NCBI RefSeq assembly: GCF_019977735.1
Contig: NZ_AP025018.1
Coordinates: forward strand, 8,126,580 to 8,190,579
Origin: Calothrix sp. PCC 7716
Lineage (GTDB): Bacteria; Cyanobacteriota; Cyanobacteriia; Cyanobacteriales; Nostocaceae
Direction of reading: 5' to 3'
Length of the DNA stretch: 64,000 nucleotides
This document shows, piece by piece, positions 13,727-49,207 of the stretch. The notes below the pieces were generated by a model, which had not been told where the DNA came from, did not search any database, and worked only from the letters and a program-made list of their open reading frames with translations. The position numbers and the translations under genes are program-made. The stretch's first letter is position 1; each line of letters starts with the position of its first letter.

Positions 13727-14875
13727 ATGATAAAAAAAGGGTTAATAGCACTCTTCTTCAGTATTTCTACGATTGTGACATTAACAAGCGAAGCTTTTGG
13801 TTTCACTTTTACTCGGATTGCCGATAGCAATCAGGGTTATAGTGAGTTCAAGCTGCCTACTATAAATCAAACAGGCAATGTTGCTTTTACAGCTAACGAT
13901 GCAAATGGAAGCAGTGCCATATTTACAGGTAATGGGTTAGGTTTAACAACCGTTGCAGATAATACGGCATTTAACTCGTTTGGACAATTTGTAGGCATTA
14001 ATGATAATGGAGCAGTCGCATTTAAAGCAAATGCGAACACTGGAGGTACCAGTGTTTTTACTGTTGAAAATGGATTAGTAACTTCTGTAGCACAAGGCGC
14101 CAACTACTTTGGTATAGGCGACCCTGTAATCAATAATAGTAATGTTGTAGCCTTTAATGCCAACATCAATGGTGTTTTTGGGATTTTTACAAATCTTAAT
14201 GGCTCGGTAAATTCCATTGCTGATACAAGTGGGATATATAGTAATTTTGAACGTCCAAGTATTAATCAAGAAAGTACTGTAGCATTTTCTGCTAGCTTGA
14301 AGAATGGAGGTGGTAGAGGAATTTATACGGTTGATAGCAACGGCGCCGTTAATACTGTAGTTGATACAACTGGAGATTTCGACTTTTTATTTAGTCCAGC
14401 CATCAATAACACAGGTACGCTTGCCTTTAAGGGAATATTGGACGCTTTAGCAGGTGAAGGAATTTACACAGCCAGTAATGGCGTAGTTAATAAAATTGTC
14501 GATAATACTGACCGTTTTGATTTTTTTGAAAACCCAGCTATTAACGATAAAGGTAATGTTGCATTCAAAGGTGTTCTTAGAGGTGGTGGTTTAGGAATTT
14601 ATAACGGTGCAGACCCCAACAGTAATAAAATCATCGCAGCCGGTGATTCTTTATTCGGCGCCATCGTTACAGACCTTTACATATCTAATCAAAGTTTAAA
14701 TAACAGTAATCAACTTGTGTTTTATGCCAAATTTGATGATGGTTCAAGCGGAATTTTCCGCGCTGACCCAGATATTCAAAGTACTTCTCCTGCCACTTCT
14801 ATACCTGAACCATCATCGGTATTAGGTATATTAGGTGTCGGTGCTTTGCTTATGGGTTGGAGGCAACGGATTTAA
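13727..14875 (+). CDS. PEP-CTERM anchored secreted repeat protein
   Basis: 382 aa. A signal peptide (LIALFFSISTIVTLT) is followed by about seven repeats of 40-45 residues carrying INxxGxVAF-type cores (INQTGNVAFTA, INDNGAVAFKA, INDKGNVAFKG), which suggests a beta-propeller. The C-terminus has SIPEPSSVLG with PEP at 360-362, a short hydrophobic helix and a basic end, the PEP-CTERM signal cut by exosortase. Known PEP-CTERM proteins go to the cell surface or matrix and are often encoded near exopolysaccharide genes. No exosortase was seen in the window. The last codons (WRQRI and stop) lie in the AACGGAT repeat, so the original tail may have been replaced. Confidence 0.8.
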   Translation: MIKKGLIALFFSISTIVTLTSEAFGFTFTRIADSNQGYSEFKLPTINQTGNVAFTANDANGSSAIFTGNGLGLTTVADNTAFNSFGQFVGINDNGAVAFKANANTGGTSVFTVENGLVTSVAQGANYFGIGDPVINNSNVVAFNANINGVFGIFTNLNGSVNSIADTSGIYSNFERPSINQESTVAFSASLKNGGGRGIYTVDSNGAVNTVVDTTGDFDFLFSPAINNTGTLAFKGILDALAGEGIYTASNGVVNKIVDNTDRFDFFENPAINDKGNVAFKGVLRGGGLGIYNGADPNSNKIIAAGDSLFGAIVTDLYISNQSLNNSNQLVFYAKFDDGSSGIFRADPDIQSTSPATSIPEPSSVLGILGVGALLMGWRQRI

Positions 14876-14890
14876 CGGATGTAACGGATG
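14861..14890. repeat. AACGGAT repeat overlapping a gene end
   Basis: AGGCAACGGATTTAACGGATG continues as GTAACGGATGG and is the same unit as at 3190-3224. It supplies the last codons and the stop codon of the PEP-CTERM gene. Confidence 0.65.
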
Positions 14891-14921
14891 GTTTTTTAAT
14901 ACATTTTTTAAATTCAACCGT

Positions 14922-14958
14922 GTAGAGACGCGAGGAACATCGCGTCTCTACATTTTTT
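14922..14958 (+). terminator. Palindrome followed by T-run, probable terminator
   Basis: GTAGAGACGCG at 14922-14932 pairs with CGCGTCTCTAC at 14941-14951 around an eight-base loop. It is followed by ATTTTTT, so this repeat-derived hairpin has the form of a rho-independent terminator for the PEP-CTERM gene. Confidence 0.6.
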
Positions 14959-14979
14959 ATATATTTTTTAATTAAAGCA

Positions 14980-17900
14980 ATGGCTAATCAAACGATTTTT
15001 ACAACACAAACACCAAGCAACCCTGATGCTACCGATGGGATTGCTTATGAGTTAGGAATGAAGTTTCAAAGTTCTGCGGCTGGTCAAATAACGGCTATTC
15101 GTTATTGGAAGTCGCCAAGCGAAACGGGTAGTCATATCGGTAAAGTATGGGCGGGAACTGGTGGGACCAATCCTTTAGTGACGGTAACATTTGCAAACGA
15201 AACCGCTTCGGGATGGCAAGAGCAAGTTTTAACGACACCATTAAATATTCAGGCGAATACAAGCTATGTAGTTAGTGTTAATACTAATAATCATTTCGCG
15301 ATGACAACAGATGCTTTAGCGACTGCGGTTACTAACGGGAATTTGAGTTCAATTGCTGATAATAACAACGGTGTGTTTGGCAATGCTGGTAGTTTTCCGA
15401 ATAATTCTTACCGCAATAGTAATTACTTCCGTGATGTTGGATTTGTTGTTACTACTATTCCTATGATTACCAAAACTGGCGGTGATAATCAAACGGGTAC
15501 AGCAGGCGCCGCGCTAGCAAATCCATTGGTAGTTAAAATCGAAAATGGGGGTAATCCACAAGCTGGTGTAACAGTAAATTTTACTGTGATGGCTGGAGGT
15601 GGTAGTGTATCACCAGCTAGTGCTGTTACTAATGCGATTGGACAAGCTAGCACTGTACTTACTCTCGGCACCGCTCCGGGTGCGATAATTCCTGTTAGTA
15701 ATACTGTGAGTGCTTCAGTACCAAGTATTGGAACTGTGACTTTTAATGCTACAGCTAATCCTGCTGGTGTAACTGTAGTCAGTGTGTTTACTAACCAGAC
15801 GCCCAGTAATGCCAACGCTTCTGATAACGCAACATATGAACTGGGAATGAAATTTACCAGTACCAAGGCAGGCCAAATTACTGGTATTCGTTTTTGGAAG
15901 GCAGCAAGTGAAACAGGTTCACATATTGGTAAAATTTGGTCGTCTAACGGTACTTTGTTGGGTTCTGTAACTTTCGCAAACGAAACAGCTTCGGGATGGC
16001 AGACTCAAGCACTTTCCACACCAGTTAATATTGACCCTAATACAACATACGTTGTCTCTGTTAACGTTAATTCGTTCTTTGCACTTACTTACGATGTTTT
16101 AGCAAGTACTATTACAAACGGCGCCATAAGCTCAGTTGCTGATGGTAATAATGGTGTATACGGTAACATCAATGCGTTCCCAACTAATTCGTTCCGCAAC
16201 ACTAACTATTTCCGTGATGTAATTTTAGTGATTGGCAGCACCATTAATAAAGTAAGTGGTGATAATCAAAGCGGTAAGGTTGGAACTGCGTTGCCAAATC
16301 CCTTGGTAGTTCGCGTCGAAGATGGTAATAATAATCCACAGTCAGGTGTCACTGTTACGTTTACAGTGACTCAAGGTGCTGGTACTGTGTCGAATGCCAG
16401 TGTGGTAACTGGTAGTGATGGTCAAGCAAGTACGACACTGACTTTAGGTAATATACCAAGTGGACCCAATAGCGCAGTTATTGTGACAGCAACAGCAGCG
16501 GGTATTGGTAGTACTACTTTTAGCGCAAAATCGGCGCCTGCAAATGCCAACGCGATATATTTAGAAAATATCAAAACAGGCACAAACAATTGGGTAATCA
16601 CAAATTATGCGTTAGACGAAATTACAGGTTATGCAGCAGCAACCAGTGTAAATAAAGGTGCTTCACTACCAGTTAAAGTATCGCTCAAACAATCTGGAAG
16701 TTTTCAAGTTGAAGTGTACCGTTTAGGTTATTACGGTGGTTTAGGCGGTAGGTTAGTATCGAGCAGTGGTTCACTTACTGGTAATACTCAGCCCGCGTGT
16801 ACAGTAGATGATGATCCTAATAATCCAAATAGAACTAACCTTGTTGAGTGTAACTGGTCAGATTCTTATACAATTGCAGTTGGTTCCGATTGGACAAGTG
16901 GGCTTTATATAGCCAAACTTATCGACCAAGCGAGTGGTAAACAATCTGCTATTTGGTTTGTTGTCCGTGACGATAGCAATAATTCTGATATCGTATTCCA
17001 AAGCAGCTTTACTACTTTCCAAGCTTATAACAGTCTAGGTCAATATAGTTTGTATGCTTGGAATAGTCTTAATGGACAAAAAGCCATTAAAGTTTCTTTC
17101 GACCGTCCGTTCATTCAAACTACTAGTAAAGGCGCCTGGTATTTTGACTCAATGTTACGTTTTGAGCGTCACATGGTGCGCTGGTTAGAGTCACAAAGTT
17201 ATGATGTCAACTATATAACGAACCTGGATGTTCAAGCGAACCCGCAAATAATTCGACAACACAAAGTCTTTATATCAGTAGGACATGATGAATACTGGTC
17301 GATGCAAGAACGCGATGCAGTCGAGCAAGCACGCGATGCGAACCCACCAGTTAACTTAGCCTTTTTCAGTTCAAACACTGCTTACTGGCACATCCGCTTT
17401 GGAAACTCCACTAACGGTGGACAAGCTAACCGCATCATGACGTGTTACAAGAGTAATGCTGACCCAACCTCACCAGCAACGAACAAATTCAGGTTAATTA
17501 ACCGTCCAGAGAATGCGCTGTTAGGTGTTATGTATACAGGTGATAGAAGTGACGGTTTATACGATACAACAACAAATATAAACAGCCCTTCATATTCGGG
17601 TTTTGACCATGTAGTATCAAAGAGTGATGACCTTTATTACGCTAATACCGGACTAACTAACGGCAGTAAATTAACGAGTTTAGTAGGTTTTGAATGGGAT
17701 GCTAATGTAAATAACGGCGCCGCACCTAGCAATTTAGTGATACTATCACAATCTACAGTAGTCCCAAGTAATACTGACCCCGATGTTCCACCGGGGACTA
17801 ATTATAGCGTTTCTAATGCGGTACGTTACACAGCCAACAGTGGGGCAAAAGTCTTTTCTACTGGTTCAAACCAATGGATGTTTGGTTTAGATAACGGTGG

Positions 17901-18018
17901 TAATAGCACAAATTTAACTGACCCACGAGCAAAACAAATAGCTGTTAACGTTTTTGCTGACATGGGCGCTCTCCCTCAAACACCCGATGCGGGAATTATT
18001 GTGCCTACGTCTCCCTAA
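14980..18018 (+). CDS. DUF4082/Ig-like repeat protein with N,N-dimethylformamidase-like domain
   Basis: 1012 aa. The order is DUF4082 (about 5-160), Ig-like BIG-1 type domain (160-262), a second DUF4082 (265-415), a second Ig-like domain (417-520) and a C-terminal N,N-dimethylformamidase large-subunit-like domain (525-1005). The two DUF4082 copies share IFTTQTPSN/VFTNQTPSN starts and FANETASGWQ. The Ig copies share GDNQ-G and GQAS-TLTLG. The C-terminal part carries ISVGHDEYWS and FFSSNTAYW. Such proteins are usually secreted, but the frame has a stop three codons before the ATG and the N-terminus MANQTIFTTQTPSN is no signal peptide. The enzymatic activity is unknown; binding or cutting of the glycan is a guess from location. 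Confidence 0.8.
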   Translation: MANQTIFTTQTPSNPDATDGIAYELGMKFQSSAAGQITAIRYWKSPSETGSHIGKVWAGTGGTNPLVTVTFANETASGWQEQVLTTPLNIQANTSYVVSVNTNNHFAMTTDALATAVTNGNLSSIADNNNGVFGNAGSFPNNSYRNSNYFRDVGFVVTTIPMITKTGGDNQTGTAGAALANPLVVKIENGGNPQAGVTVNFTVMAGGGSVSPASAVTNAIGQASTVLTLGTAPGAIIPVSNTVSASVPSIGTVTFNATANPAGVTVVSVFTNQTPSNANASDNATYELGMKFTSTKAGQITGIRFWKAASETGSHIGKIWSSNGTLLGSVTFANETASGWQTQALSTPVNIDPNTTYVVSVNVNSFFALTYDVLASTITNGAISSVADGNNGVYGNINAFPTNSFRNTNYFRDVILVIGSTINKVSGDNQSGKVGTALPNPLVVRVEDGNNNPQSGVTVTFTVTQGAGTVSNASVVTGSDGQASTTLTLGNIPSGPNSAVIVTATAAGIGSTTFSAKSAPANANAIYLENIKTGTNNWVITNYALDEITGYAAATSVNKGASLPVKVSLKQSGSFQVEVYRLGYYGGLGGRLVSSSGSLTGNTQPACTVDDDPNNPNRTNLVECNWSDSYTIAVGSDWTSGLYIAKLIDQASGKQSAIWFVVRDDSNNSDIVFQSSFTTFQAYNSLGQYSLYAWNSLNGQKAIKVSFDRPFIQTTSKGAWYFDSMLRFERHMVRWLESQSYDVNYITNLDVQANPQIIRQHKVFISVGHDEYWSMQERDAVEQARDANPPVNLAFFSSNTAYWHIRFGNSTNGGQANRIMTCYKSNADPTSPATNKFRLINRPENALLGVMYTGDRSDGLYDTTTNINSPSYSGFDHVVSKSDDLYYANTGLTNGSKLTSLVGFEWDANVNNGAAPSNLVILSQSTVVPSNTDPDVPPGTNYSVSNAVRYTANSGAKVFSTGSNQWMFGLDNGGNSTNLTDPRAKQIAVNVFADMGALPQTPDAGIIVPTSP

Positions 18019-18085
18019 ACCCTCTATACAGGGAAACTTAAAATTTTATTGCCAATAAAATAACCTAAAATAACCGTAAAAGACA

Positions 18086-19087
18086 ATGTACATAAGAATT
18101 AGACGGCGCCGATTTGGGCAGCTTGTTTTATCCGGTGCAGCTACGGCAGTGTTAGCTAACTTACCACGCCGAGCATATGCTCAGTCAGAATCACAACTTT
18201 ATGGAGTGCAAGTTGCCAAACAGGAAGTTGCAACTGATGCACCAAACAAAACTCCAGATACTGTTTTTGTAGTAGCGGATACAGTAACAGGAAAAGAAAC
18301 TTCTCGAATTAATGTTCCTTCCCGGCAAGTTAGTAATTTACAAACAGATACAAAGCTTGATAGTGTACAAATTGACAATACAGATGCAAGTCGAAGAGTA
18401 CCAGGAAAATCAGTATTGACTCGTACAAGAGAACGCATAACAAGTTTAACTCCTCTTACTGACGGAACTTTAGCTGTTGTATCTGTAATCAATACCCCAC
18501 GAGGCAACTTTACACGGGTAGCACAAATTAACCCTAAAACTGGTGAAAATTTAGGAGCAACAAGAATTTCTGGCTTTGAAACAAATAGTTCCACACTTGA
18601 AAGCTTAGTAGCAACAAAAGATAATAATCTAATTGGCATAGCTAGTTTTAGCGATGGGTTACCACCATTTAAATTAATTGGTATTGATTTAAAAGGAGGT
18701 AAAGCAAATAATGCCGAAAGGTTAGCACTACCGACATTATTTCCAAATCGACGATACAGTAACTTAGTACTGGGTCGTGACAACGTAATTTACGGTACAA
18801 GCATAGGTTCTGAGGGTTCAGTTGTACTGATTAAAATCGATTTAAACGATAGAGCTGCAATAACAGGTCGAGCGAAAGTTACCACAGTCGTCGAATTGCA
18901 GTTGGACGGCAAAGACTTAGAAAACGATATATTAGGCCTAGCGATTTCTCCGGGAGGTCAAATATATGCCCTTGCCAACCCGACATCAAAAGGAACTAAT
19001 TCGCTATTTCGAGTTGATGAAAAAAGCGGCGCCATTAGATTTGTGCGAGATTTTCAAGTTGATAAAATAGCATTTGCAATAGCTTAA
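18086..19087 (+). CDS. Tat-exported beta-rich protein of unknown function
   Basis: 333 aa. The N-terminus has a twin-arginine signal (IRRRRFGQLVLSG, then a hydrophobic stretch ending before AYAQSES), so it should be exported folded to the periplasm or surface. The body has propeller-like strands (ITSLTPLTDGTLAVVS, LTLPTLFPNRRYSNLVLG-like blocks) but no family that I can name. It follows the DUF4082 protein by 67 bases and is closed by a strong terminator, so the two may be one transcript. Confidence 0.7.
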   Translation: MYIRIRRRRFGQLVLSGAATAVLANLPRRAYAQSESQLYGVQVAKQEVATDAPNKTPDTVFVVADTVTGKETSRINVPSRQVSNLQTDTKLDSVQIDNTDASRRVPGKSVLTRTRERITSLTPLTDGTLAVVSVINTPRGNFTRVAQINPKTGENLGATRISGFETNSSTLESLVATKDNNLIGIASFSDGLPPFKLIGIDLKGGKANNAERLALPTLFPNRRYSNLVLGRDNVIYGTSIGSEGSVVLIKIDLNDRAAITGRAKVTTVVELQLDGKDLENDILGLAISPGGQIYALANPTSKGTNSLFRVDEKSGAIRFVRDFQVDKIAFAIA

Positions 19088-39873: not shown

Positions 39874-40386
39874 ATGATGCTTGAATCTATCCCTTTTTTT
39901 ATTGCCTGTATTGTGCTTTTGAGTGTAATTAGCTTAAAAAGCCCTATACTACTTTTTTGCTTACTCGCAGGCAGTTTAATTTCAATAGTTTTACATCAAA
40001 TCGGGCGCCAAGTCAATTTACCCAGGCGCCAAGTTATATTTTTACAGGTTGTTGCAGTAAGTGTAATTTTAGCTTGTTTTTGGTTAGACTATTTCGCAGA
40101 CCCGGCTCAAGCTCAGTTTTTTAAACGTGCGGAGGATTTTTTCAGAAATAACTTAACACAAAGTAACACAAACACTACTAATACAACTGGTACGCAAGCG
40201 GCTATTAGTTTGATTTTTAACGTTCTACGTGCGTTATATTTACTGTATATAGCAGTAGCTCTAATTGGCGTAATTAACGCAGTTCGTAGGGATGATGACT
40301 GGCAAAATATAGCTAGAACCCCTTTACTAGTTGTGATTGCTGTAACAATTGCGGATGTACTTACAGGTTTTGTAATTGGTAATTAA
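39874..40386 (+). CDS. Small membrane protein, pilin/VirB2-like by position
   Basis: 170 aa. Two or three helices lie in the first 75 residues, followed by a polar loop rich in N and T (LTQSNTNTTNTTG). Two helices near the end (ALYLLYIAVALIGVI and LLVVIAVTIADVLTGFVIG) are separated by a short basic loop, the two-helix pattern of VirB2/TrbC pilins. No sequence family was recognised. It is the first gene of the operon and its stop shares one base with the next start. The pilin role is inferred only from topology and order. Confidence 0.6.
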   Translation: MMLESIPFFIACIVLLSVISLKSPILLFCLLAGSLISIVLHQIGRQVNLPRRQVIFLQVVAVSVILACFWLDYFADPAQAQFFKRAEDFFRNNLTQSNTNTTNTTGTQAAISLIFNVLRALYLLYIAVALIGVINAVRRDDDWQNIARTPLLVVIAVTIADVLTGFVIGN

Positions 40387-40754
40387 TGAGTCAAGATAAA
40401 GATAAGGATTTTCGTCCAGTTAATAGGATACTCGGTAGTCAACCTTCATTAGGTCCCATACCTGCCGACCAGGTGCTTCCTTGGACGATTATTGCTTTAG
40501 CTTCTTATTTTATTGTCAACGGCATTTTTGGAGGTATATTCCAAGATGAGTTTCAAAAATGGTTGTGGACTGCGTTATTAGCTACATGGGGAATTGCCAC
40601 TTGGTGGATACTTACAGGGGGTAAAAGTTGGCGCTTTTTAAGTAAGTTTATCGGTGTTCCGACTTGGACTAGAGGATTTGCCCGTTATCACAGCATCCTG
40701 AGAAATCATGAAGGAAAAAATCGGAAAGCAAAGCGTCGAAGGAACAGGAAGTGA
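40386..40754 (+). CDS. Small membrane protein, VirB3/TraL-like by position
   Basis: 122 aa with two close helices (LPWTIIALASYFIVNGIFGG and WLWTALLATWGIATWWIL) and a basic C-terminus. It lies directly before a VirB4-like ATPase and overlaps it by 47 bases. VirB3 has this size and topology and is always beside, or fused to, VirB4. The sequence itself is not diagnostic. Confidence 0.6.
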   Translation: MSQDKDKDFRPVNRILGSQPSLGPIPADQVLPWTIIALASYFIVNGIFGGIFQDEFQKWLWTALLATWGIATWWILTGGKSWRFLSKFIGVPTWTRGFARYHSILRNHEGKNRKAKRRRNRK

Positions 40755-43446
40755 AAGATTAACTCCGTTTGAGGATGCGCTCAATTTAGCTACAATGTTG
40801 CGTATTTCACTAGGTGGACGCGATATTGGCGCCTATATTTTGACACAAGGAACTCAAAAGGATAGATTATGCTTTGTTTTTGGTTTTGAGTGTCGGGGTG
40901 TTCACACAACTTTAAGAACAGAACAAATCGACCAAATCATCGGTAATATCGAAGCTGGTTTAAAGGATATCCCCGTCAGCGAGCAAATTACTTTTCACCT
41001 TGGTTCGTTTAGTTCAGATGCTCAACGACAAGAAGAACTTGCGTCTCTAATTAAAAATGTCTCTTCTAAAGATATAAAATATTTACTGCTCGCAGAACGC
41101 GCGCGTATTCAAGAACTTACGAATAATGGTGTTCGCAAGCCAAAATTTCTACGCATTTACGTCACTTATACAGTTGAAAGTAACTCGACTAATACAAGTG
41201 ATTGGATAGAACGGATTTTAGCCAAAGCTGAATTATTCTGGCTCAAATTCAAGGGAGAAGTCGCAGAAGTCGAAAATCAACGACTCGAAGCTATTATTGC
41301 CGATGCTTTTCAAGGATTTTGTCGTTGGGAGCAAGTATTAGCCAATAAAATGGCACTCGATATTCAACCTTTAACTACAGAACAACTTTGGAGCGAAATT
41401 TGGCGCCGTTTTAATAATAGTCCACCTATTCCTATTCCGCAGTTGCTTACATTCGATGAAAATGGACTCCACGAAGAAGTTTATTCGGACTTAGCAAGTA
41501 CTAAACTACTATTAGACAATATTCATAGTACAACACTATTAATAAAGTCAAGTATACCCTGTGCAGACCGTCGCTGGATTCATGTTAAAGATAATTATAT
41601 AGGCGCCTTAACATTTCTAGAAAAACCGGGTAGTTGGCAAAGTAAAACAGCGCAGTTACGATATTTATGGGAATTATTAGCACGTGAAACGGTTGTAGAC
41701 ACAGAAGTATTTTGTCAGCTAACTGCAGCAAACCCAGCTTTGGTCAAAACAACGCTACAGCGAGTCTTAAAGCAGTCGAATATGACCGCATTAATGGCTC
41801 AAGAAAAAAGTAAAACGATTGACGTTAATGCTCAATTGAAGTTAAGAAAATCAGTAGCAGCACAAGAACAATTATACGAAGGCGCCGTACCAATTTACGC
41901 AGGAGTCGTTATTTTCGTCCATCGTCCCACCGTAGAACAACTAGATGAAGCGACGAGATATATAGAAAATTGCTTTCAACGTCCAGCAGAAGTAGTAAGA
42001 GAAACTCAGTACACTTGGAAAATATGGCTACAAACTTTACCAATTGTATGGGAAAAACTATTAGCAAAACCATTTAATCGGCGCCAATTATATTTAACCA
42101 GTGAAGTTCCCGGTTTAATGCCCCTAGTACTAACCAAACCCAGTGATAACTACGGGTTTGAGTTGATAGCAGAAGAAGGTGGGACACCGATACATTTAGA
42201 TTTATTTAACGAACATAAGAATTTAGCTTTATTTGCGACAACACGCGCAGGTAAATCAGTATTAGTATCAGGGATATTAACGCAAGCCTTAGCACATAAC
42301 ATACCAGTAGTTGCATTAGATTTTCCTAAACCCGATGGAACATCAACGTTTACCGACTACACACAGTTTATAGAAGGAGGCGCCTATTTTGACATATCCA
42401 AGCAATCGAATAACTTATTTGAACAGCCAGACCTGCGCTTATTATCACCAGAAGAACAACGCGACCGTCAGCTAGATTATACAGCTTTCCTCGAATCGGC
42501 ACTGATGACAATGGTATTAGGCGCCGAAACTGACAACCCATTGTTATCACAAACAGTGCGTTCACTATTAAATATTGCATTAACAGCATTCTTTGCCGAC
42601 GAGGGAATAAAACAAAGATACAGAACAGCAATGGAAGGAGGGTTTGGAACTATAGCGTGGCAAAAAACCCCAACCTTACAAGATTTTTTATATTTTTGTT
42701 CCCCCGAACATTTACAACTAGACGCAATGAGTCAGCGAGTAGAAGACGCACTCAGTCAAATTCGTTTGCGGTTGCGGTTTTGGTTATCGAGTCGAGTCGG
42801 ACAAGCAATATCAGCACCATCTAGCTTTCCCACCGATGCTCAACTCTTAGTATTTGCTCTACGAAATTTATCAGATAGTGAAGACGCAGCAATATTATCA
42901 TTGAGCGCATACTCAGCAGCATTACGTCGCGCACTTAGCTATCCAGCATCAATATTCTTCATCGACGAGGCACCAATTTTGTTTGAATTCGAGCAAATCG
43001 CCAATCTTGTTGGTAGAATATGTGCCAACGGCGCCAAAGCAGGAATAAGAGTTATTTTATCAGCCCAAGACCCCGACACCATCGCCAAATCAAAGGCTGC
43101 ATCCAAGATATTACAAAACTTAACAACGCGACTTGTGGGACGTATTCAACCTGTTGCCATAGATAGCTTTGTAGACATATTAAAATACCCGCGCGAAATA
43201 ATCTCACGCAACGCATCAGAAAGCTTTTTTCCTAGAAAAGAAGGAGTATACAGCCAATGGTTACTAGATAATAATGGTATTTATACCTTTTGCCGTTACT
43301 ACCCAGGATACGAACAACTAGCAGTAGTAGCCAATAACCCGAACGAACAAAACGCACGGAACATAATGATGAAAAAATACCCCGATAAATATGAGGCAAT
43401 ATCAAAATTCGCACATCAACTAATCACATCTTTAAAAAAAAGGTAA
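40708..43446 (+). CDS. virB4: VirB4/TraC-like conjugation-type ATPase
   Basis: 912 aa. The N-terminal 480 residues are the VirB4-specific domain. The RecA-like ATPase domain starts near residue 480, with Walker A in ATTRAGKS (510-517) and Walker B in IFFIDEAP (749-756), then the SAQDPDTIAKSKAASKILQN segment typical of TraC/VirB4 hexameric ATPases. The Walker A lacks the usual first glycine. In type IV secretion VirB4 drives pilus assembly or substrate transport at the inner membrane. The gene starts within the previous one. I judge VirB4 likelier than a coupling protein, because it lacks N-terminal membrane helices and has the long N-domain. Confidence 0.82.
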   Translation: MKEKIGKQSVEGTGSERLTPFEDALNLATMLRISLGGRDIGAYILTQGTQKDRLCFVFGFECRGVHTTLRTEQIDQIIGNIEAGLKDIPVSEQITFHLGSFSSDAQRQEELASLIKNVSSKDIKYLLLAERARIQELTNNGVRKPKFLRIYVTYTVESNSTNTSDWIERILAKAELFWLKFKGEVAEVENQRLEAIIADAFQGFCRWEQVLANKMALDIQPLTTEQLWSEIWRRFNNSPPIPIPQLLTFDENGLHEEVYSDLASTKLLLDNIHSTTLLIKSSIPCADRRWIHVKDNYIGALTFLEKPGSWQSKTAQLRYLWELLARETVVDTEVFCQLTAANPALVKTTLQRVLKQSNMTALMAQEKSKTIDVNAQLKLRKSVAAQEQLYEGAVPIYAGVVIFVHRPTVEQLDEATRYIENCFQRPAEVVRETQYTWKIWLQTLPIVWEKLLAKPFNRRQLYLTSEVPGLMPLVLTKPSDNYGFELIAEEGGTPIHLDLFNEHKNLALFATTRAGKSVLVSGILTQALAHNIPVVALDFPKPDGTSTFTDYTQFIEGGAYFDISKQSNNLFEQPDLRLLSPEEQRDRQLDYTAFLESALMTMVLGAETDNPLLSQTVRSLLNIALTAFFADEGIKQRYRTAMEGGFGTIAWQKTPTLQDFLYFCSPEHLQLDAMSQRVEDALSQIRLRLRFWLSSRVGQAISAPSSFPTDAQLLVFALRNLSDSEDAAILSLSAYSAALRRALSYPASIFFIDEAPILFEFEQIANLVGRICANGAKAGIRVILSAQDPDTIAKSKAASKILQNLTTRLVGRIQPVAIDSFVDILKYPREIISRNASESFFPRKEGVYSQWLLDNNGIYTFCRYYPGYEQLAVVANNPNEQNARNIMMKKYPDKYEAISKFAHQLITSLKKR

Positions 43447-43534
43447 TCAGAATATAGAATTCAGGAGTCAGAATAAACTTGTATAAAATGAACAAATCTC
43501 TCTGTGTCCTCTGCGTCTCTGTGGTAAAACTTTT

Positions 43535-44317
43535 ATGAAAAAACTCTTTATACTTATATCCTTCTTCTCCCTCATTATCACCTTACCAGCCACAGCACAA
43601 CTAGGGCAAGTATGGACAGACTTTCAATCCTACTCAGCAGACCTACAAAACCATCTTAGAAACAACCTAAACGAACTAAAACCCTTACAAATTCAAAGCC
43701 AAAGCGCCATCACCAGCAATACAGGAGAACTAAACATTCCTAACCCACTAGGCGCCGGAGAAACCCTCAGTAACGACATTAACGTAAACTTATTATCTAG
43801 TAACTATGAAACAAACCCTTTAATGAACTCAATAATATTTGGCAACGAAATGAAACGTTTAATATTCCGCAGTTCTGCTGCTGGAACATTAGGCAACAAC
43901 GGACAACTGCGGACAAAAATCAAACTTCAAAACATCGAAACACAATTAAAAAGTATTGACGCATTTGCCGACGAAGCAGACAAAATAAACCAAGATTTTG
44001 TCAGCGACATTCAAACCGAAATTAATCGACTTGCCAGTATTAGCCAACCGATTGGAACATTACTAAGTGTCCTCAACCAATCTAACTTACTGACACAGCA
44101 AATCAAAATTCAGCGTGACCAGTCAAAAATCATCGCTGAAACGCTTGCACAAACAATTCACGAAAACCAGCTTTTACAATACTCCAACCTAAACCTAGCC
44201 AATATCGGAGAACAGATAGAAGACACAAACCGCGCGCGTCGGATAGATAACTCAACCGAAGCAGCGCGACTTTTACGTACCACATCTCAAACTGACTTAT
44301 TCGGTCGAAAACCTTAA
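43535..44317 (+). CDS. Secreted helical protein, VirB5-like by position
   Basis: 260 aa with a signal peptide (KLFILISFFSLIITLPATA, cut before Q). The body is rich in Q, N and long helices (IETQLKSIDAFADEADKIN, QTEINRLASISQPIGTLLSVL), as in VirB5 proteins, which sit at the tip of the T-pilus. It lies between VirB4- and VirB6-like genes, the usual VirB5 place. Two bases separate it from the VirB6-like gene. The 88-base gap upstream has a dispersed repeat (TCCTCTGCGTCTCTGTGG). Confidence 0.62.
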   Translation: MKKLFILISFFSLIITLPATAQLGQVWTDFQSYSADLQNHLRNNLNELKPLQIQSQSAITSNTGELNIPNPLGAGETLSNDINVNLLSSNYETNPLMNSIIFGNEMKRLIFRSSAAGTLGNNGQLRTKIKLQNIETQLKSIDAFADEADKINQDFVSDIQTEINRLASISQPIGTLLSVLNQSNLLTQQIKIQRDQSKIIAETLAQTIHENQLLQYSNLNLANIGEQIEDTNRARRIDNSTEAARLLRTTSQTDLFGRKP

Positions 44318-44319
44318 TT

Positions 44320-45348
44320 ATGTTTTATTTAGCCCAAACTGGTATAGATAATGTAATAGGTAGCGGCGCCACTACAGCAAAGAGTATCGCCGAAGCATGG
44401 GACAAACAGTGGTTAGATTTATTACAAAACAATAATAGCTTTTACGGCGCCTTAACAAACCTAGGTATATTTTTTGCAGTTGGTACATTATTATTTTTTA
44501 TGTTCCAATGGCTCAAAGATTTAATATATAGTGACTATTCGCGACCAATATCAGCTTTAATATGGCCCTTTATTATAGTATTACTACTTACAAACACAGG
44601 AACCGGGAGTGCATTATCTAACTTGACACTCGGAGTTAGGAACTTACTTAATACAGTCAACCAGCAAATTATCACAACAGCAGACGCGAATAAAATATAT
44701 CAGCAAGCTTTAAACATGAGTACAGGTGAAGAAATAGCAGGGTCTTTACTGCGTCCATGTGGGTCACTTTTGGGAGAGCAGCAAACTCAATGCTTAGTCA
44801 AAGCAAGTGAGAAAGCTAGCTTACTTTGGCAAGAATATCGGAATTTATACGGAAATCAAATTTGGATAGACCGTTTAGAAACTAAAGTAACTCAAATTGC
44901 TTATAGTCCGGGTGCTGTATCAGAAAGCACCTTTAATGCATTGCTTGGTTCGACAATGCAAACGATTATTAAAAACTTTTTTATTTCATTACAGTATGCA
45001 TTTCAGAACCTAATCGAAGCTACGATGTTGTTAGTAGCTGCATTGGGTCCACTCGCAGTAGGAGGTTCATTACTACCAGTTGCAGGTAAACCAATTTTTG
45101 CATGGTTAACAGGATTTTTGTGTTTAGGAATTTCTAAAATATCTTTTAACATTATCGCCATAATAACAGCCGCAGTCATTGTCAACGGGCCAGGACAAAA
45201 TGCCAATACCGACCCAGACTTAATGTGGTTTATGATTTTTCTTGGTTTATTGGCGCCTATAGTTTCTCTAGTTATAGCAGGTGCAGGAGGGTTTGCGATA
45301 TTTAATGCCATTAGCTATACGGGTGCATTAGTTCGAGATAGAGTTTAG
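44320..45348 (+). CDS. virB6: VirB6/TrbL-like polytopic membrane protein
   Basis: 342 aa with about six helices. A first pair lies at 43-95 (LGIFFAVGTLLFFMFQWL, ALIWPFIIVLLLT), a central polar stretch of about 130 residues follows, and a C-terminal group starts at ATMLLVAALGPLAVGGSLLP and holds the glycine- and alanine-rich VIAGAGGFAIFN. This is the form of VirB6/TrbL, which forms the inner-membrane part of the transport channel. Two cysteines (RPCGSLLGEQQTQC) stand in the central outside part. It has 13 bases to the next gene. Confidence 0.72.
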   Translation: MFYLAQTGIDNVIGSGATTAKSIAEAWDKQWLDLLQNNNSFYGALTNLGIFFAVGTLLFFMFQWLKDLIYSDYSRPISALIWPFIIVLLLTNTGTGSALSNLTLGVRNLLNTVNQQIITTADANKIYQQALNMSTGEEIAGSLLRPCGSLLGEQQTQCLVKASEKASLLWQEYRNLYGNQIWIDRLETKVTQIAYSPGAVSESTFNALLGSTMQTIIKNFFISLQYAFQNLIEATMLLVAALGPLAVGGSLLPVAGKPIFAWLTGFLCLGISKISFNIIAIITAAVIVNGPGQNANTDPDLMWFMIFLGLLAPIVSLVIAGAGGFAIFNAISYTGALVRDRV

Positions 45349-45361
45349 CGAGGTGTAAGAC

Positions 45362-46177
45362 ATGGTTCGTTTACTCGAAAAGAAAAAAGCTAAAACAAGC
45401 GTTCTAACGATTTTTGCGTTTACAACTTTTGGGTTACATCTATTAGCTTTATCGATGCTGGTGTTACAGGGGTTAAACATTCGTTCCTTGAGTTTACAGA
45501 AACCTCCAAATTTCGTGCAGATGATAGATGGTAAAACGGTAGATATAAATAAATCGAATTTAGAACCGGAACCAGAGACAATACGTCAGTTCGTAAATAA
45601 GACCATGACGTTAATGTTTAACTGGTCAGGAAAGTTACCACCGCAGTCTATTGATGAAGCAACACAACCTAAACCAGATGGGGGTGTGTCAGTACCAACA
45701 GGAAAGGGGAATCAAAAAATTAGTACTACTAGTTGGGTTGCTGGGTTTGCGTTATCTGAGGATTTTCGTAAGGGGTTTTTGACGAAAATCGCGGAGATGA
45801 CACCACCAGAGGTTTTTTTGAATAATCCGAGTCAAGCTATTTCGTTACGGTTAGCAGTTAAAAGGATATATCCACCCAAGAAAATTGCTCCTGGTAAGTG
45901 GCAAGTTGGAATGGTGGCAGATTTAATACAGAAGAAACAATCTGATAACCGCAGTGTGATAATTCCTTTTAATAAGGATTTGCTTGTGCGTTCTGTTGAT
46001 TCTTTTGGGTATCCGCAAAGTATGAAGAGCGATTTACAAAAAGCTATTTATAGTGTTCGTGCTGATAAGTTAGAAATTTATGAGATTAGAAATTTATGTT
46101 TGGTCGATGAGTATAGTGGTTTGAGTCAAGATAAGTCTTGTGGGAATTTGAAGAATGACCAGACTTTTATTAAGTAA
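45362..46177 (+). CDS. VirB8/TraE-like bitopic protein, copy 1
   Basis: 271 aa. A short basic start is followed by one helix (SVLTIFAFTTFGLHLLALSM, about 13-35) and a periplasmic domain. Conserved with the next gene are VQMIDG (52-57), PETIRQFV (71-78), TMTLM-x2-W (81-88), GKW (178-180) and IPFNK (201-205). VirB8/TraE proteins have this arrangement and an NTF2-like periplasmic fold that links the parts of the secretion channel. The assignment is from topology and operon place. It differs from copy 2 by about 55 extra residues in the middle. Confidence 0.65.
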   Translation: MVRLLEKKKAKTSVLTIFAFTTFGLHLLALSMLVLQGLNIRSLSLQKPPNFVQMIDGKTVDINKSNLEPEPETIRQFVNKTMTLMFNWSGKLPPQSIDEATQPKPDGGVSVPTGKGNQKISTTSWVAGFALSEDFRKGFLTKIAEMTPPEVFLNNPSQAISLRLAVKRIYPPKKIAPGKWQVGMVADLIQKKQSDNRSVIIPFNKDLLVRSVDSFGYPQSMKSDLQKAIYSVRADKLEIYEIRNLCLVDEYSGLSQDKSCGNLKNDQTFIK

Positions 46178-46187
46178 AAATCTTAAT

Positions 46188-46361
46188 TGTCATTCCGAGC
46201 GTAGCGAAGAATCTCGAAACTGTCATTCTGAGCGTAGCAAACAATCTCGAAACTGTCATTCTGAGCGTAGCAAACAATCTCGAAACTGTCATTCTGAGCG
46301 TAGCGAAGAATCTATATAACTTGTAGATTATTTAGATGCTTCGTTCCTCAGCATGACAATT
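46188..46361. repeat. 33-base direct repeats with an inverted end copy
   Basis: Four units of about 33 bases starting at 46188, 46221, 46254 and 46287 (TGTCATTCTGAGCGTAGCAA...), followed at 46336-46361 by an inverted piece (GATGCTTCGTTCCTCAGCAT). There are no spacers, so this is not CRISPR. It separates the two VirB8-like genes and may form a large hairpin in the operon mRNA. Confidence 0.8.
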
Positions 46362-46398
46362 CAACCATAGAGACACAGAGTTCACAAAGGAAGGGGTG

Positions 46399-47052
46399 AT
46401 GAAGTCAGAGAGTAAGAGAGCTAGTTTTTTACCGTTGTTTACTGTAGCGACGTTTGGGTTACATTTGTTTACTTTTTTGTTGTTGACGTTTCATTGGTCG
46501 TTGTTACAGCAGTTGCAACAGCGTTTAACTCCTCAAAGTTTGGTGCAGTTAATTGATGGACGTGCGATAAGTGTAGACCCAAAACCTGATATGGAAAGGT
46601 ATCCGGAGACAATAAGACGGTTTGTGGGTGAAACAATGACTTTAATGCTTACTTGGTCACAGCAACAACAACCACGAATGGTATGGGAAACAAGTTCGGT
46701 TTTAGTAAATGATAACTTAAAGCCAAAATTAGAATCAATAATTAGTCCCTCAGAAACATTGAGTCAAGGTACCGAAAACGTTTTAGTCATTCAAACCGTT
46801 GGACAACCAACTAAAATTAGTGAGGGTAGATGGAAAGTTGAAATAATCGCCAATCAAATCATCTTCACCAACTCTGATAAATTAGGAAAAACAATCCCCT
46901 TTAATAAACAAATTTTAGTACAAGCAGTAGAGGCAAACGGCGCCTCACTACCAAATTTACCAGTACCACTAAACATAGCAGTCTCCCGTCTAGGAGAAGC
47001 AAGACTACAAATATATAACGTCTGCGACATCAACGATAAAAACTGCTCTTAA
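46399..47052 (+). CDS. VirB8/TraE-like bitopic protein, copy 2
   Basis: 217 aa, paralogous to the gene at 45362. The membrane helix FTVATFGLHLFTFLLLTFHW is followed by VQLIDG (49-54), PETIRRFV (69-76), TMTLM-x2-W, GRW (143-145) and IPFNK (166-170). A GTG three bases upstream could also start it; AAGGAAGG lies before both. A cysteine pair near the end (CDINDKNC) parallels the C-terminal cysteines of copy 1. The two may form a heteromeric VirB8-like ring. Confidence 0.65.
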   Translation: MKSESKRASFLPLFTVATFGLHLFTFLLLTFHWSLLQQLQQRLTPQSLVQLIDGRAISVDPKPDMERYPETIRRFVGETMTLMLTWSQQQQPRMVWETSSVLVNDNLKPKLESIISPSETLSQGTENVLVIQTVGQPTKISEGRWKVEIIANQIIFTNSDKLGKTIPFNKQILVQAVEANGASLPNLPVPLNIAVSRLGEARLQIYNVCDINDKNCS

Positions 47053-47073
47053 TCCCTAGGGTTGAAACCGAAT

Positions 47074-48600
47074 ATGAATAAACTACCAAACACCCAAGAC
47101 ACATCCGACTGGGAAGCAAGAATGTCAAAGTTAGTAGGACTAGAAACAAAACATCCAACTAACAACCAACCAGAAAACACCGTACAACCAGAACCCCAAG
47201 AACAACAAACCAAACAACCCCTATCCGCAAGTCCCTTCGCAAAACTAGGCTTAGTCGGCGCCGGCACATTCGCTGTAGTATTAGTAGCGGGTTTATTCCT
47301 ATCACAAATAATGAACCCTGGTAATCAAAAACCAAAAGCCAATACCATTACCGCACAACCGCAACCAACACTCCAACCCACCCCACAACTAGAGTCACAA
47401 GTCGAAGATTTAAAAACGAAACTAGCATTAACCGAACAAGCACAAGCAGTCAAAGCAGCACAGCAAAAACTGAGAAACCCACTACCAGTATCTCCCAAAC
47501 CAACACCACAAACACCCATTAGAACTCAACCACAAATTACAAACAGAGTAAGACTAATTCCACCCCCCAGAATAGCAACTAATTATACACCACCGCGCGT
47601 ACAACCACAACCAGAACGTATACGTATAGTCACCATACCCGCACCTCAAACTCCACCCGCGCGACCCCAAGCAACCGCAAAACCTACACCCAAACCAACA
47701 ATTCAAGCAACCCCACAAATTACACCAGACTCACTTCAAGATTTAGTCAAACTAGCAGAATTAAACGACTACTACAAAAAAGACACACTAGCTAGCAACA
47801 CTCCTACACCAACACCCACACCTACAATTACACCATCACCAGTGATACCAGTAACACCAACACCCACACCAGCAGTACTATCAACTCCTGCACCAACTAT
47901 CGCAGCAACACCCATACCAACACCTACACCAACACAGGCGCCTTCTTCGGTAGCAGTAGGTAGTACAGTAAAAGCAGTATTTGCAACTGCCGTATTTGGA
48001 GAAACCACCCGTTCAAGTAATAACAGCACAAACGAAGCAGGAAAACCAGTATTTGTAGTGCGTCTGCGAGAACCCCTAAAATCAACAGATGGAAAAATAG
48101 CTTTACCCGTAAACACAGAACTACTCGCAGAAATTCGTTCAATATCCGAACAAGGTTTAGTTCAACTCAACGTTACCAAACTAGTTACCCGCAACGGTAA
48201 TAGCATATCAGAAAAAACTTTAGCCGAAAATGCAATAATAGTTCGTGCGCGTGAAGGTAGACCCTTAATAGCAAACCAATATCCCAATAAAGGGGGGTCA
48301 ATAGCTTGGATGGACACAGGATTATTCGTATTAGGAGGTATTGGCAAAGCTGCGGAATTAGCTAATCGTACAGAATCTCAAGTTGTCGTCACAAGCGGTG
48401 CAGGAACAACAATTAGTAATACCAACTCTAGACGTAATGTATTAGCGGGTGTTGTCGATGGTGGTATAAGCGCTATAGTCCCTCAAATCGCACAACGCAA
48501 TCAACAAGCTATTTCACAAATGACTCAACGCGGTAATATTTGGTTCTTAGCTGCTGGTAAAGAAGTTGAAGTATATATTAATCAAACTATGCAATTTTAA
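47074..48600 (+). CDS. virB10: VirB10/TrbI-like protein
   Basis: 508 aa from the ATG at 47074; a TTG at 47062 would add four residues. A cytosolic N-terminus (about 60 residues) precedes one helix (LGLVGAGTFAVVLVAGLFL). A coiled piece and a long P/T/Q-rich linker (about 140-300) follow, then the C-terminal TrbI-type beta domain starting VAVGSTVKAVFATAVFGE and ending with WFLAAGKEVEVYINQTMQF. VirB10 spans the periplasm and joins inner and outer membrane complexes of type IV secretion systems. It is the last gene of the operon and converges on the mazF-type gene with 11 bases between. Confidence 0.85.
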   Translation: MNKLPNTQDTSDWEARMSKLVGLETKHPTNNQPENTVQPEPQEQQTKQPLSASPFAKLGLVGAGTFAVVLVAGLFLSQIMNPGNQKPKANTITAQPQPTLQPTPQLESQVEDLKTKLALTEQAQAVKAAQQKLRNPLPVSPKPTPQTPIRTQPQITNRVRLIPPPRIATNYTPPRVQPQPERIRIVTIPAPQTPPARPQATAKPTPKPTIQATPQITPDSLQDLVKLAELNDYYKKDTLASNTPTPTPTPTITPSPVIPVTPTPTPAVLSTPAPTIAATPIPTPTPTQAPSSVAVGSTVKAVFATAVFGETTRSSNNSTNEAGKPVFVVRLREPLKSTDGKIALPVNTELLAEIRSISEQGLVQLNVTKLVTRNGNSISEKTLAENAIIVRAREGRPLIANQYPNKGGSIAWMDTGLFVLGGIGKAAELANRTESQVVVTSGAGTTISNTNSRRNVLAGVVDGGISAIVPQIAQRNQQAISQMTQRGNIWFLAAGKEVEVYINQTMQF

Positions 48601-48611
48601 TATATGTTTTT

Positions 48612-48959
48612 CTACAAACCTAAACAATAGCGAACAGTAACTTCAATTTCTTGCATTTTTTGAGATGAAATTTGACCAGCGGGGTCAGTAGGAAATCGAT
48701 TTTGGTCTAAAGAACGAATTTGAAAGCAGAGAAAAACTGTCTCCATTGGCAATCCACTGTCACTTGGAGGAACTCTTACATTGGTTGGATAATCACGCTT
48801 AAAATTTGTCCCCTTTGTTCCCACAACTACAGTTACAACTAGAGGCTTTTGATTTATAGTATTTGTGGATAATACCAAGACAGGGCGATTTCCTGATTGT
48901 TCTCTACCTTGTACAGGATCAAGATTAACAAAGTAGATTTGTCCTCTTTCAATAGTCAC
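48612..48959 (-). CDS. mazF: MazF/PemK-type toxin (mRNA endoribonuclease)
   Basis: 115 aa. IERGQIYFVNLDPVQGREQ and RPVLVLSTNTINQ are the N-terminal motifs of the PemK/MazF family. The length is typical. Such toxins cut mRNA in cells in which the antitoxin is lost. The start overlaps the stop of the antitoxin gene by four bases, which is the usual toxin-antitoxin arrangement. It is placed between the VirB-like operon and the GNAT gene. Confidence 0.9.
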   Translation of the reverse strand: MTIERGQIYFVNLDPVQGREQSGNRPVLVLSTNTINQKPLVVTVVVGTKGTNFKRDYPTNVRVPPSDSGLPMETVFLCFQIRSLDQNRFPTDPAGQISSQKMQEIEVTVRYCLGL

Positions 48960-49207
48960 AATTTTTCTAAACCATCCATTTCTGTAACAATAAACTCTTG
49001 ATTAATAGCTGCAATTTCTGCTTGTATCTCCGGGTCTTGAGCCATTTGAGCCATTTGTTCAGCCATATATTCAGCATCAGCAAATTTATCTAGTAGCTGT
49101 TTTTTGTATTGTACTTGTTCAGAGATACGTTCTAAGAGCCATTCTTGCTCTTCCAAAGTCAAAGTACCGATAGAACGCTCTATTTCGTGTAAATGCGGTG
49201 ACATCAT
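48956..49207 (-). CDS. Antitoxin of the MazF-type pair
   Basis: 83 aa, acidic and helical, starting MMSPHLHEIERSIGTLTLEEQ and ending EMDGLEKL. I recognise no DNA-binding fold. Its assignment rests on size and on the four-base overlap with the toxin gene. The MTLEEQEWLLERI-like helix is common in small cyanobacterial antitoxins. It would bind and block MazF, and often also represses its own promoter, which should lie in the 139 bases between it and the divergent GNAT gene. Confidence 0.78.
   Translation of the reverse strand: MMSPHLHEIERSIGTLTLEEQEWLLERISEQVQYKKQLLDKFADAEYMAEQMAQMAQDPEIQAEIAAINQEFIVTEMDGLEKL

Follow-up and report, generated by a model that had tools for sequence, protein, structure and literature searches.

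A stretch of 64,000 nucleotides of Calothrix sp. PCC 7716 (contig NZ_AP025018.1, positions 8,126,580 to 8,190,579; hereafter the window) was found to contain an operon related to the VirB core of type IV secretion systems (T4SS). An earlier note on this DNA had described eight consecutive plus-strand genes at 39874-48600, and the open reading frames (ORFs), their positions and the Walker A and Walker B motifs of the ATPase at residues 510 and 749 were all confirmed. The gaps between the genes were short or overlapping, except for 88 nt 5' of gene 4 and 218 nt 5' of gene 7.

The first two genes, previously recorded as two small membrane proteins, could be assigned more closely. Gene 1 (39874-40386, plus strand, 170 aa) is a putative VirB2-type prepilin by its anatomy and gene order, with a long leader ending in AQA|QFF followed by a predicted mature pilin of residues 81-170 (about 40114-40383) in which a charged loop links two hydrophobic helices. 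The AxAQFF cleavage motif was kept in 65 of 68 loci, and in the alignment across loci the mature part was more conserved (77% mean identity) than the leader (57%). No significant family match was found in a Pfam scan of the 26-member VirB2 alignment. Gene 2 (40386-40754, plus strand, 122 aa) contained a hydrophobic segment at residues 30-48 and was 43% identical to its homologue in Nostoc TCL26-01, the small gene immediately before virB4 on plasmids of the T4SS class MPF_C, which suggests a VirB3-like protein. Gene 3 (40708-43446, plus strand, 912 aa) is a VirB4/TraC-type ATPase by its Walker motifs and by matches to TIGR02746 (TraC-F, 2e-12) and TIGR00929 (VirB4_CagE, 1e-9), which were significant and lay far below the curated cut-offs. 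Among its relatives Walker A was conserved in 93 of 93 loci and Walker B in 92 of 93. The PF03135 profile detected none of the VirB4 genes of the window's own genome and is thus blind to the MPF_C class.

Gene 4 (43535-44317, plus strand, 260 aa) contained a signal-like N-terminal segment and was 24% identical to the gene after virB4 on the Trichormus variabilis MPF_C plasmid; by position and weak homology it is a VirB5-like secreted protein and a putative pilus-tip subunit. Gene 5 (44320-45348, plus strand, 342 aa), with five hydrophobic segments and 36% identity to the TCL26-01 B6 protein, appears to encode a VirB6-like polytopic membrane protein. Gene 6 (45362-46177, plus strand, 271 aa) was 45% identical to the plasmid B8 protein and gene 7 (46396-47052, plus strand, 218 aa) is the first sequence of the alignment (A8) to which gene 6 belongs. 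Gene 8 (47062-48600, plus strand, 512 aa) contained a single N-terminal hydrophobic segment (residues 62-80) and a proline-rich linker, followed by the presence of a C-terminal TrbI domain that covered positions 2-188 of the 188 of PF03743 above its curated cut-off (2.3e-9), in agreement with the VirB10/TrbI-like role proposed before. VirB10 and the VirB5-like protein were the most variable proteins of the operon (50% and 52% mean identity, respectively).

Checks by profile and by structure had been suggested, and these bore out the VirB4 and VirB10 assignments by profile and the VirB8-like role by fold. The six proteins other than VirB4 and VirB10 showed no match near the curated cut-offs in Pfam, NCBIfam or PHROGs (best about 0.007), and their roles were therefore established by other means. 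Pfam scans of all members of the VirB8 (40), VirB2 (26) and gene x (32, see below) alignments gave incidental weak matches (best E 0.005). Sequence searches of the PDB chains were empty for these three profiles with hits admitted up to an E of 1, and equally for VirB4, where the limit was 0.001. Comparison of the VirB8 profile with an R388-type VirB8 profile was likewise empty, and it was the predicted fold that settled the assignment. With re-ranking by VIA-align, the predicted structure of gene 7 was found to support the VirB8 fold, an N-terminal transmembrane helix followed by an NTF2-like periplasmic domain of VirB8 type. Gene 6 is therefore taken as a probable VirB8 paralogue (a) through its homology to gene 7 (paralogue b). 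Among the 120 listed of 344 gene-7 homologues, the names given by the source were almost all "hypothetical" or "uncharacterized".

The operon was placed by VirB4 grouping and gene order in the class MPF_C. This is the cyanobacterial class to which pCC7120alpha belongs, where virB4 is alr7206 and virD4 is alr7213 (PMC8600333). A tblastn search with the ATPase returned 112 plasmid records (54 conjugative, 37 non-mobilizable and 21 mobilizable), in which all ten named genera were cyanobacterial and 18 more were without a name. The window VirB4 was about 52-61% identical to the nearest conjugation-type VirB4 proteins of plasmids and of its own genome, including 59% to plasmid pTCL26-01_B, and 37% to locus F of its own genome. 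The conjugation-type loci, namely L009 (Nostoc TCL26-01), L024 (T. variabilis) and loci C, D, E and F of the window's genome, were found to share one gene order and to extend beyond the shared genes with genes x, y and VirD4; the plasmid loci L009 and L024 also have a relaxase annotated nearby. The order 1-3-4-5-6-8-10-x was common to the window's clade, where a further VirB8 is inserted, and L009, and from B3 onward also to L024.

The MPF_C plasmid systems (pCC7120alpha, pTCL26-01_B and T. variabilis plasmid A) thus match the clade in gene order, their homologues running 1, B3, B4, B5, B6, B8, B10, x, whereas the window operon contains a second VirB8 and is missing genes y, z, VirD4 and the relaxase. 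It further differs in being chromosomal, with a vertical signal across the family, and in that gene x has been shortened or lost in its clade. The earlier statement that no cyanobacterial system with this gene set had been described is wrong at the level of the class, because MPF_C on pCC7120alpha has been described; MOBless T4SS (VirB4 clusters without a relaxase) were moreover noted in 2011, cyanobacteria included (Guglielmini et al., PMC3158045). These are treated there as a class with putative protein export, with no conserved lineage, gene set or fold given in the available part of that paper. No description of the present lineage was found among the papers listed by searches of an open-licence library. 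The parent family is known, and the branch itself is unusual.

The VirB6-like protein was used as the clade marker in the genome surveys. Among the matches listed from 388 genomes of the order, VirB6 identity was sharply bimodal, with 49 matches at 62-100%. These came from 47 genomes, of which 42 belong to the window's family and 5 to another family, f8; next came one match at 49%, and the rest were at or below 43%. A survey of 386 genomes of the phylum, many of them shared with the survey of the order, gave 23 carriers, 22 of them from the 43 listed members of the window's family and one from f8, with none elsewhere. The best 80 of 81 loci of named strains included 73 at 65% VirB6 identity or above, from genera that, where given, we take to be Nostocales, and the other seven at 32-36%. 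In the survey for gene order that had been proposed earlier, all eight genes were present in the same order in 65 of the 73 named loci, six were cut by contig ends and two (L107 and L114) had one gene divided into two ORFs. The same order was found in all 20 further loci, several of them from the same strains as the named loci; the two sets together form the 93 related loci considered below.

The family f8 includes the unicellular Gloeothece verrucosa PCC 7822, whose copy lies on a plasmid. Four members of this family were found to be differently rearranged, as 5-6-8a-8b-10-1-3-4 in Gloeothece, 1-3-4 facing 5-6-8a-8b-10 in G155, 1-8b-10-6-8a-3-4-5 in G340, and 8b-10 and 1-3-4-5-6 as two divergent blocks in G279, with seven of the eight genes located in 55 kb and no 8a among them. 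Retention of the set in spite of these rearrangements suggests one functional unit. The contig of a fifth member, G310, was too short to show the arrangement; it contained a 314-aa ORF lying between VirB8b and VirB10 (L212). A more distant relative (L215/L217, genome G165, contig C124; VirB6 49%, VirB4 67%) was found to contain the doubled VirB8 alongside plasmid-type x and y, with VirD4 not found in 38 kb, and it may represent an intermediate stage.

No partners for DNA transfer were found beside any locus of the clade. Homologues of y, z, VirD4 and the T. variabilis relaxase genes were found in none of the 93 loci within the fetched stretches, which covered 10 kb per side for the 73 named loci and at most 40 kb in all for the 20 further loci. 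In the same scan VirD4 and other transfer genes were found in four of the seven distant loci (L125, L126, L129 and L130), the other three being short or cut. An ordinary integrative conjugative element with its relaxase and coupling protein just outside the locus, which the earlier note had named as the alternative, is accordingly not what was seen beside any clade locus. In the window's genome the nearest MobV relaxase was about 490 kb from the window (other relaxase families were not searched genome-wide), the nearest coupling-protein domain was about 1 Mb away, and no PF00589 integrase lay within 450 kb on either side, serine recombinases not having been searched. Within the scope of these searches the reported lack of a nearby relaxase, coupling protein and integrase therefore holds, and the window does not contain the relaxase, VirD4-type coupling protein and integrase by which a conjugative or integrative conjugative element is recognised.

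In some carriers the absence extended to the whole genome. Among 20 near-complete carrier genomes an MPF_C VirD4 was found in 12 (the window's genome and 11 others) and in none of the remaining eight, which also had no MobV relaxase and in which the clade VirB4 was the only VirB4. The coupling-protein domain PF12696, a broad model, was matched in 13 of the 20 and absent from seven; G279 has no MPF_C VirD4 and yet has a coupling protein of another type. The MobV relaxase was absent from 11 of the 20, with no genome-wide search for other relaxase families. Six VirB4 loci were found in the window's genome on contigs C1, C2 and C3, and two of them, locus A (the window) and locus B (C1, about 975700-984500; L010/L011), have the doubled VirB8. 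Locus B is 75% identical to the window VirB4 and is a second MOBless copy, x, y, z, VirD4 and relaxase being found near neither locus. The other four look conjugative with VirD4, and the one on C3 has its VirB4 in two pieces. The VirD4 genes of the window's genome and of the 11 others could be taken to mean that the operon is a chromosomal helper, lending its channel to mobilisable elements that bring their own coupling protein and relaxase. This is improbable, as each of the four VirD4 genes of the window's genome has its own accompanying transfer genes (the split VirB4 belongs to one such set) and a coupling-protein domain is wholly lacking in seven of the 20 carriers.

The outer-membrane part of the machine appears to be reduced. 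The earlier note had recorded no VirB9, which is correct for the window and not for its relatives, where a ninth gene, x, was present in 70 of the 84 loci in which it would be visible and where its predicted structure showed the fold of the VirB9/TraK N-terminal domain. The matched domain spans about residues 41-177 of the 192 of the model, so that no room is left for the C-terminal outer-membrane domain of VirB9. The length of gene x was 177-234 aa (median 191) as against 246-279 aa in the conjugative copies, which are about 55-90 residues longer.

Congruence with the chromosome was found for the clade marker. From the 30 genomes with the best VirB6 matches, two were dropped as their RecJ was fragmentary, and in the other 28 the pairwise distances of VirB6 and RecJ were correlated with a Mantel r of 0.815 (0 of 2000 permutations as high), or 0.794 in 25 genomes after removal of the window's genus. 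A VirB4 tree of 85 tips placed 74 clade tips together beside the plasmid types. The dN/dS between the window and four relatives was 0.01-0.28 in every comparison (VirB4 was compared with one relative); purifying selection acts on the operon genes. Decay of an integrated conjugative element to a remnant, already disfavoured, would explain why the gene set is a subset of the conjugative one; it is hardly credible given the reading frames intact nearly everywhere (a split gene in two of 73 named loci), the purifying selection, the RecJ congruence and the lack of a PF00589 integrase within 450 kb. The operon is instead very probably a functional, inherited, non-conjugative derivative of MPF_C. The chromosomal, possibly domesticated VirB-type machine without conjugation genes foreseen in the earlier note is in this respect upheld by the many genomes, the vertical signal, the purifying selection and the carrier genomes without any coupling protein.

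In the window the operon is flanked by polysaccharide genes and a Wzc-like gene, and glycan export had been among the roles suggested for it. At least three ORFs resembling the window's glycan proteins were found in 10 of the 93 loci, eight of them the window's close kin and two strains being counted twice; the count relies on likeness to the window's proteins and would miss other glycan families. The suggested survey for shared neighbours was also unrewarding, in that no flanking gene family recurred in more than 17 of the 93 loci. The glycan context is local and mainly confined to the window's kin. That the operon is a dedicated part of a polysaccharide export locus is thus very improbable on these two counts, even though glycan genes flank the operon on either side in the window and in its kin, and glycan and DUF4082/DMFA2_C-type genes occur near the Gloeothece operon too.

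Within the glycan cluster of the window, three proteins are encoded at 13727-19087: one of PEP-CTERM type with DUF7453, one of 1012 aa with DUF4082/Big_1/DMFA2_C, and one of 333 aa that looks secreted. On the Gloeothece plasmid, homologues of this trio stand immediately before the T4SS genes, with 58% identity for the large protein and 32% and 29% for the remaining two. The trio (DMFA2_C, PEP-CTERM-type and 317/333 aa) was considered as a substrate and set aside, its homologues not being seen in the fetched stretches of other members. Those stretches reach barely or not beyond the 20 kb spacing of the trio in the window, so the negative is weak.

Machines of similar composition are known. Ptl, Brucella VirB, Helicobacter pylori ComB and Bartonella Trw are grouped as T4SS without a coupling protein in a 2025 review, with no mention of cyanobacteria in its main text (PMC12857230). 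Trw is also a captured conjugation machine without a coupling protein in which VirB2 and VirB5 are kept (PMC2883598, PMC12857230), and the pilus is the part proposed to do its work (PMC2883598). Trw belongs to the R388 (MPF_T) type, with VirB2 and VirB5 amplified (PMC2883598), whereas in the present operon it is VirB8 that is doubled. The operon appears to share the features of such pilus or adhesion systems, with a putative VirB2 (by anatomy) and VirB5 (by position and weak homology) retained and no coupling protein. Trw retains VirB9 and VirB11, consistent with the R388 gene order.

What has been retained in the operon is what a conjugative pilus needs, and the parts that recruit DNA are among those lost. 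A pilus is favoured by the continued presence of VirB2 and VirB5 and by the lack of any linked substrate, and the high variability of the VirB5-like protein fits the expectation for a tip adhesin. The chances appear evenly balanced that the operon has kept the pilus-building part of an MPF_C T4SS and makes a surface pilus, most likely for adhesion or cell-cell contact. An ancestor of the window's family, or a still earlier one, would have acquired the machine from a conjugative element, with loss of the substrate-recruiting VirD4, the relaxase and the plasmid genes y and z, followed by mainly vertical chromosomal inheritance. VirB4 and VirB3 would dislodge mature VirB2 pilin from the inner membrane, and the subunits would assemble on a VirB6/VirB8 platform under a VirB5 tip. 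The filament would leave the cell through VirB10 as a trans-envelope scaffold, aided in most members (not in the window) by the VirB9 N-domain protein, and its action at the surface would most likely be adhesion or contact between cells, as has been proposed for Bartonella Trw. Computation has shown the gene set, the VirB8 and VirB9 N-domain folds, the vertical signal, the purifying selection and the absence of a coupling protein, whereas the pilus assembly, the adhesion and the order of these events are inferred. More generally, the machine has long been inherited in the chromosomes of many filamentous, nitrogen-fixing cyanobacteria, and it probably has a cell-surface role that is yet to be discovered.

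The reading that ranks next is two-step protein export, in which proteins would be brought to the periplasm by Sec/Tat and across the outer membrane by the T4SS, as in Ptl of Bordetella pertussis. VirD4 is likewise missing from the known exporters without a coupling protein (Ptl exports a periplasmic toxin and Brucella VirB secretes effectors; PMC12857230), and secreted or surface-type proteins lie about 20 kb off in the window and beside the Gloeothece operon. Export of this kind is unlikely, since the operon has no constant companion gene family from one lineage to another that could be a linked substrate, and the VirB5-like protein kept here is absent from Ptl (PMC12857230).

A DNA uptake machine like ComB would have near-identical parts. 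ComB has VirB2-4 and VirB6-10 and, like the operon, no VirD4 (PMC12857230); VirB2, 3, 4, 6, 8 and 10 with the VirB9 N-domain in most members were found here, the operon is without VirB11, and the carrier Chlorogloeopsis fritschii PCC 6912 (L062) is naturally competent (PMC9429965). Against uptake, competence in cyanobacteria is credited to type IV pili and Com proteins (PMC9429965 included), ComB is without the VirB5 that the operon keeps, and it is reported in a 2026 paper to need the VirB11 ATPase, for which the carriers were not searched. A DNA uptake function is accordingly regarded as quite doubtful.

Several observations weigh against the adhesive pilus and its vertical descent. VirB2, VirB3, VirB5 and VirB6 are putative assignments from order, topology and homology to the MPF_C plasmids, and VirB10 is as variable as VirB5, so that the variability is not specific to the tip. 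No VirB7 was found, and the window lineage is without VirB9, which could hinder an outer-membrane channel. Neither a conserved promoter motif nor a neighbour pointing to adhesion was found, and the operon was missing from 21 of the 43 members of the window's family listed in the phylum survey and is hence dispensable. The node joining Gloeothece to the VirB4 clade has a support of only 0.58, the Gloeothece copy is plasmid-borne, and locus B of the window's genome groups with Scytonema/Brasilonema copies; the position of locus B and the low node support make some transfer or an old duplication likely. Descent is therefore mainly and not purely vertical.

For heterocyst-forming cyanobacteria a plausible, if tentative, extension is a third surface filament besides type IV and conjugative pili. 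It would be an inherited VirB2 pilus built by a domesticated MPF_C with two VirB8 proteins and a reduced outer-membrane complex (with VirB9 cut down to its N-domain, or, in the window, with VirB10 by itself), serving adhesion, filament-to-filament contact or uptake and not gene transfer. The known T4SS without a coupling protein are few and, in the review cited, all from pathogens (PMC12857230), and a 2016 survey stated that MPF_I and MPF_T were the only classes known to include T4SS for protein secretion (Abby et al. 2016). A free-living family of multicellular cyanobacteria in which the pilus-making half of such a conjugation apparatus has been kept would add a new instance of domestication. 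Such a system, accessible to clean genetics in tractable strains, would prompt one to ask how a T4SS can span the outer membrane when VirB9 is reduced or absent.

The region upstream of the operon was also inspected. NtcA, HetR and DIF1 sites were not above shuffled sequences, and the commonest upstream 9-mers, located at -9 to -16 relative to the start, came mostly from the Nostoc group. As a regulatory handle the J-box of hormogonia, GGGAATACT (consensus of PMC6495340), was considered and rejected, as all exact hits were on the minus strand. Exact copies within 500 nt upstream were found in nine of 68 loci (L066, L068, L070, L072, L078, L089, L096, L100 and L131; shuffled mean 0.3), at distances of 376-493 nt in eight of them and of 163 nt in the ninth. 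On the plus strand an exact copy was found in none of the 68 loci and a copy with at most one mismatch in two (4.4 expected). The opposite-strand J-boxes could possibly belong to a neighbouring gene. Downstream of the operon, a PemK/MazF-type toxin gene on the minus strand (48612-49207), with an upstream 83-aa ORF as a possible antitoxin, was found between the T4SS operon and the Wzc-like gene.

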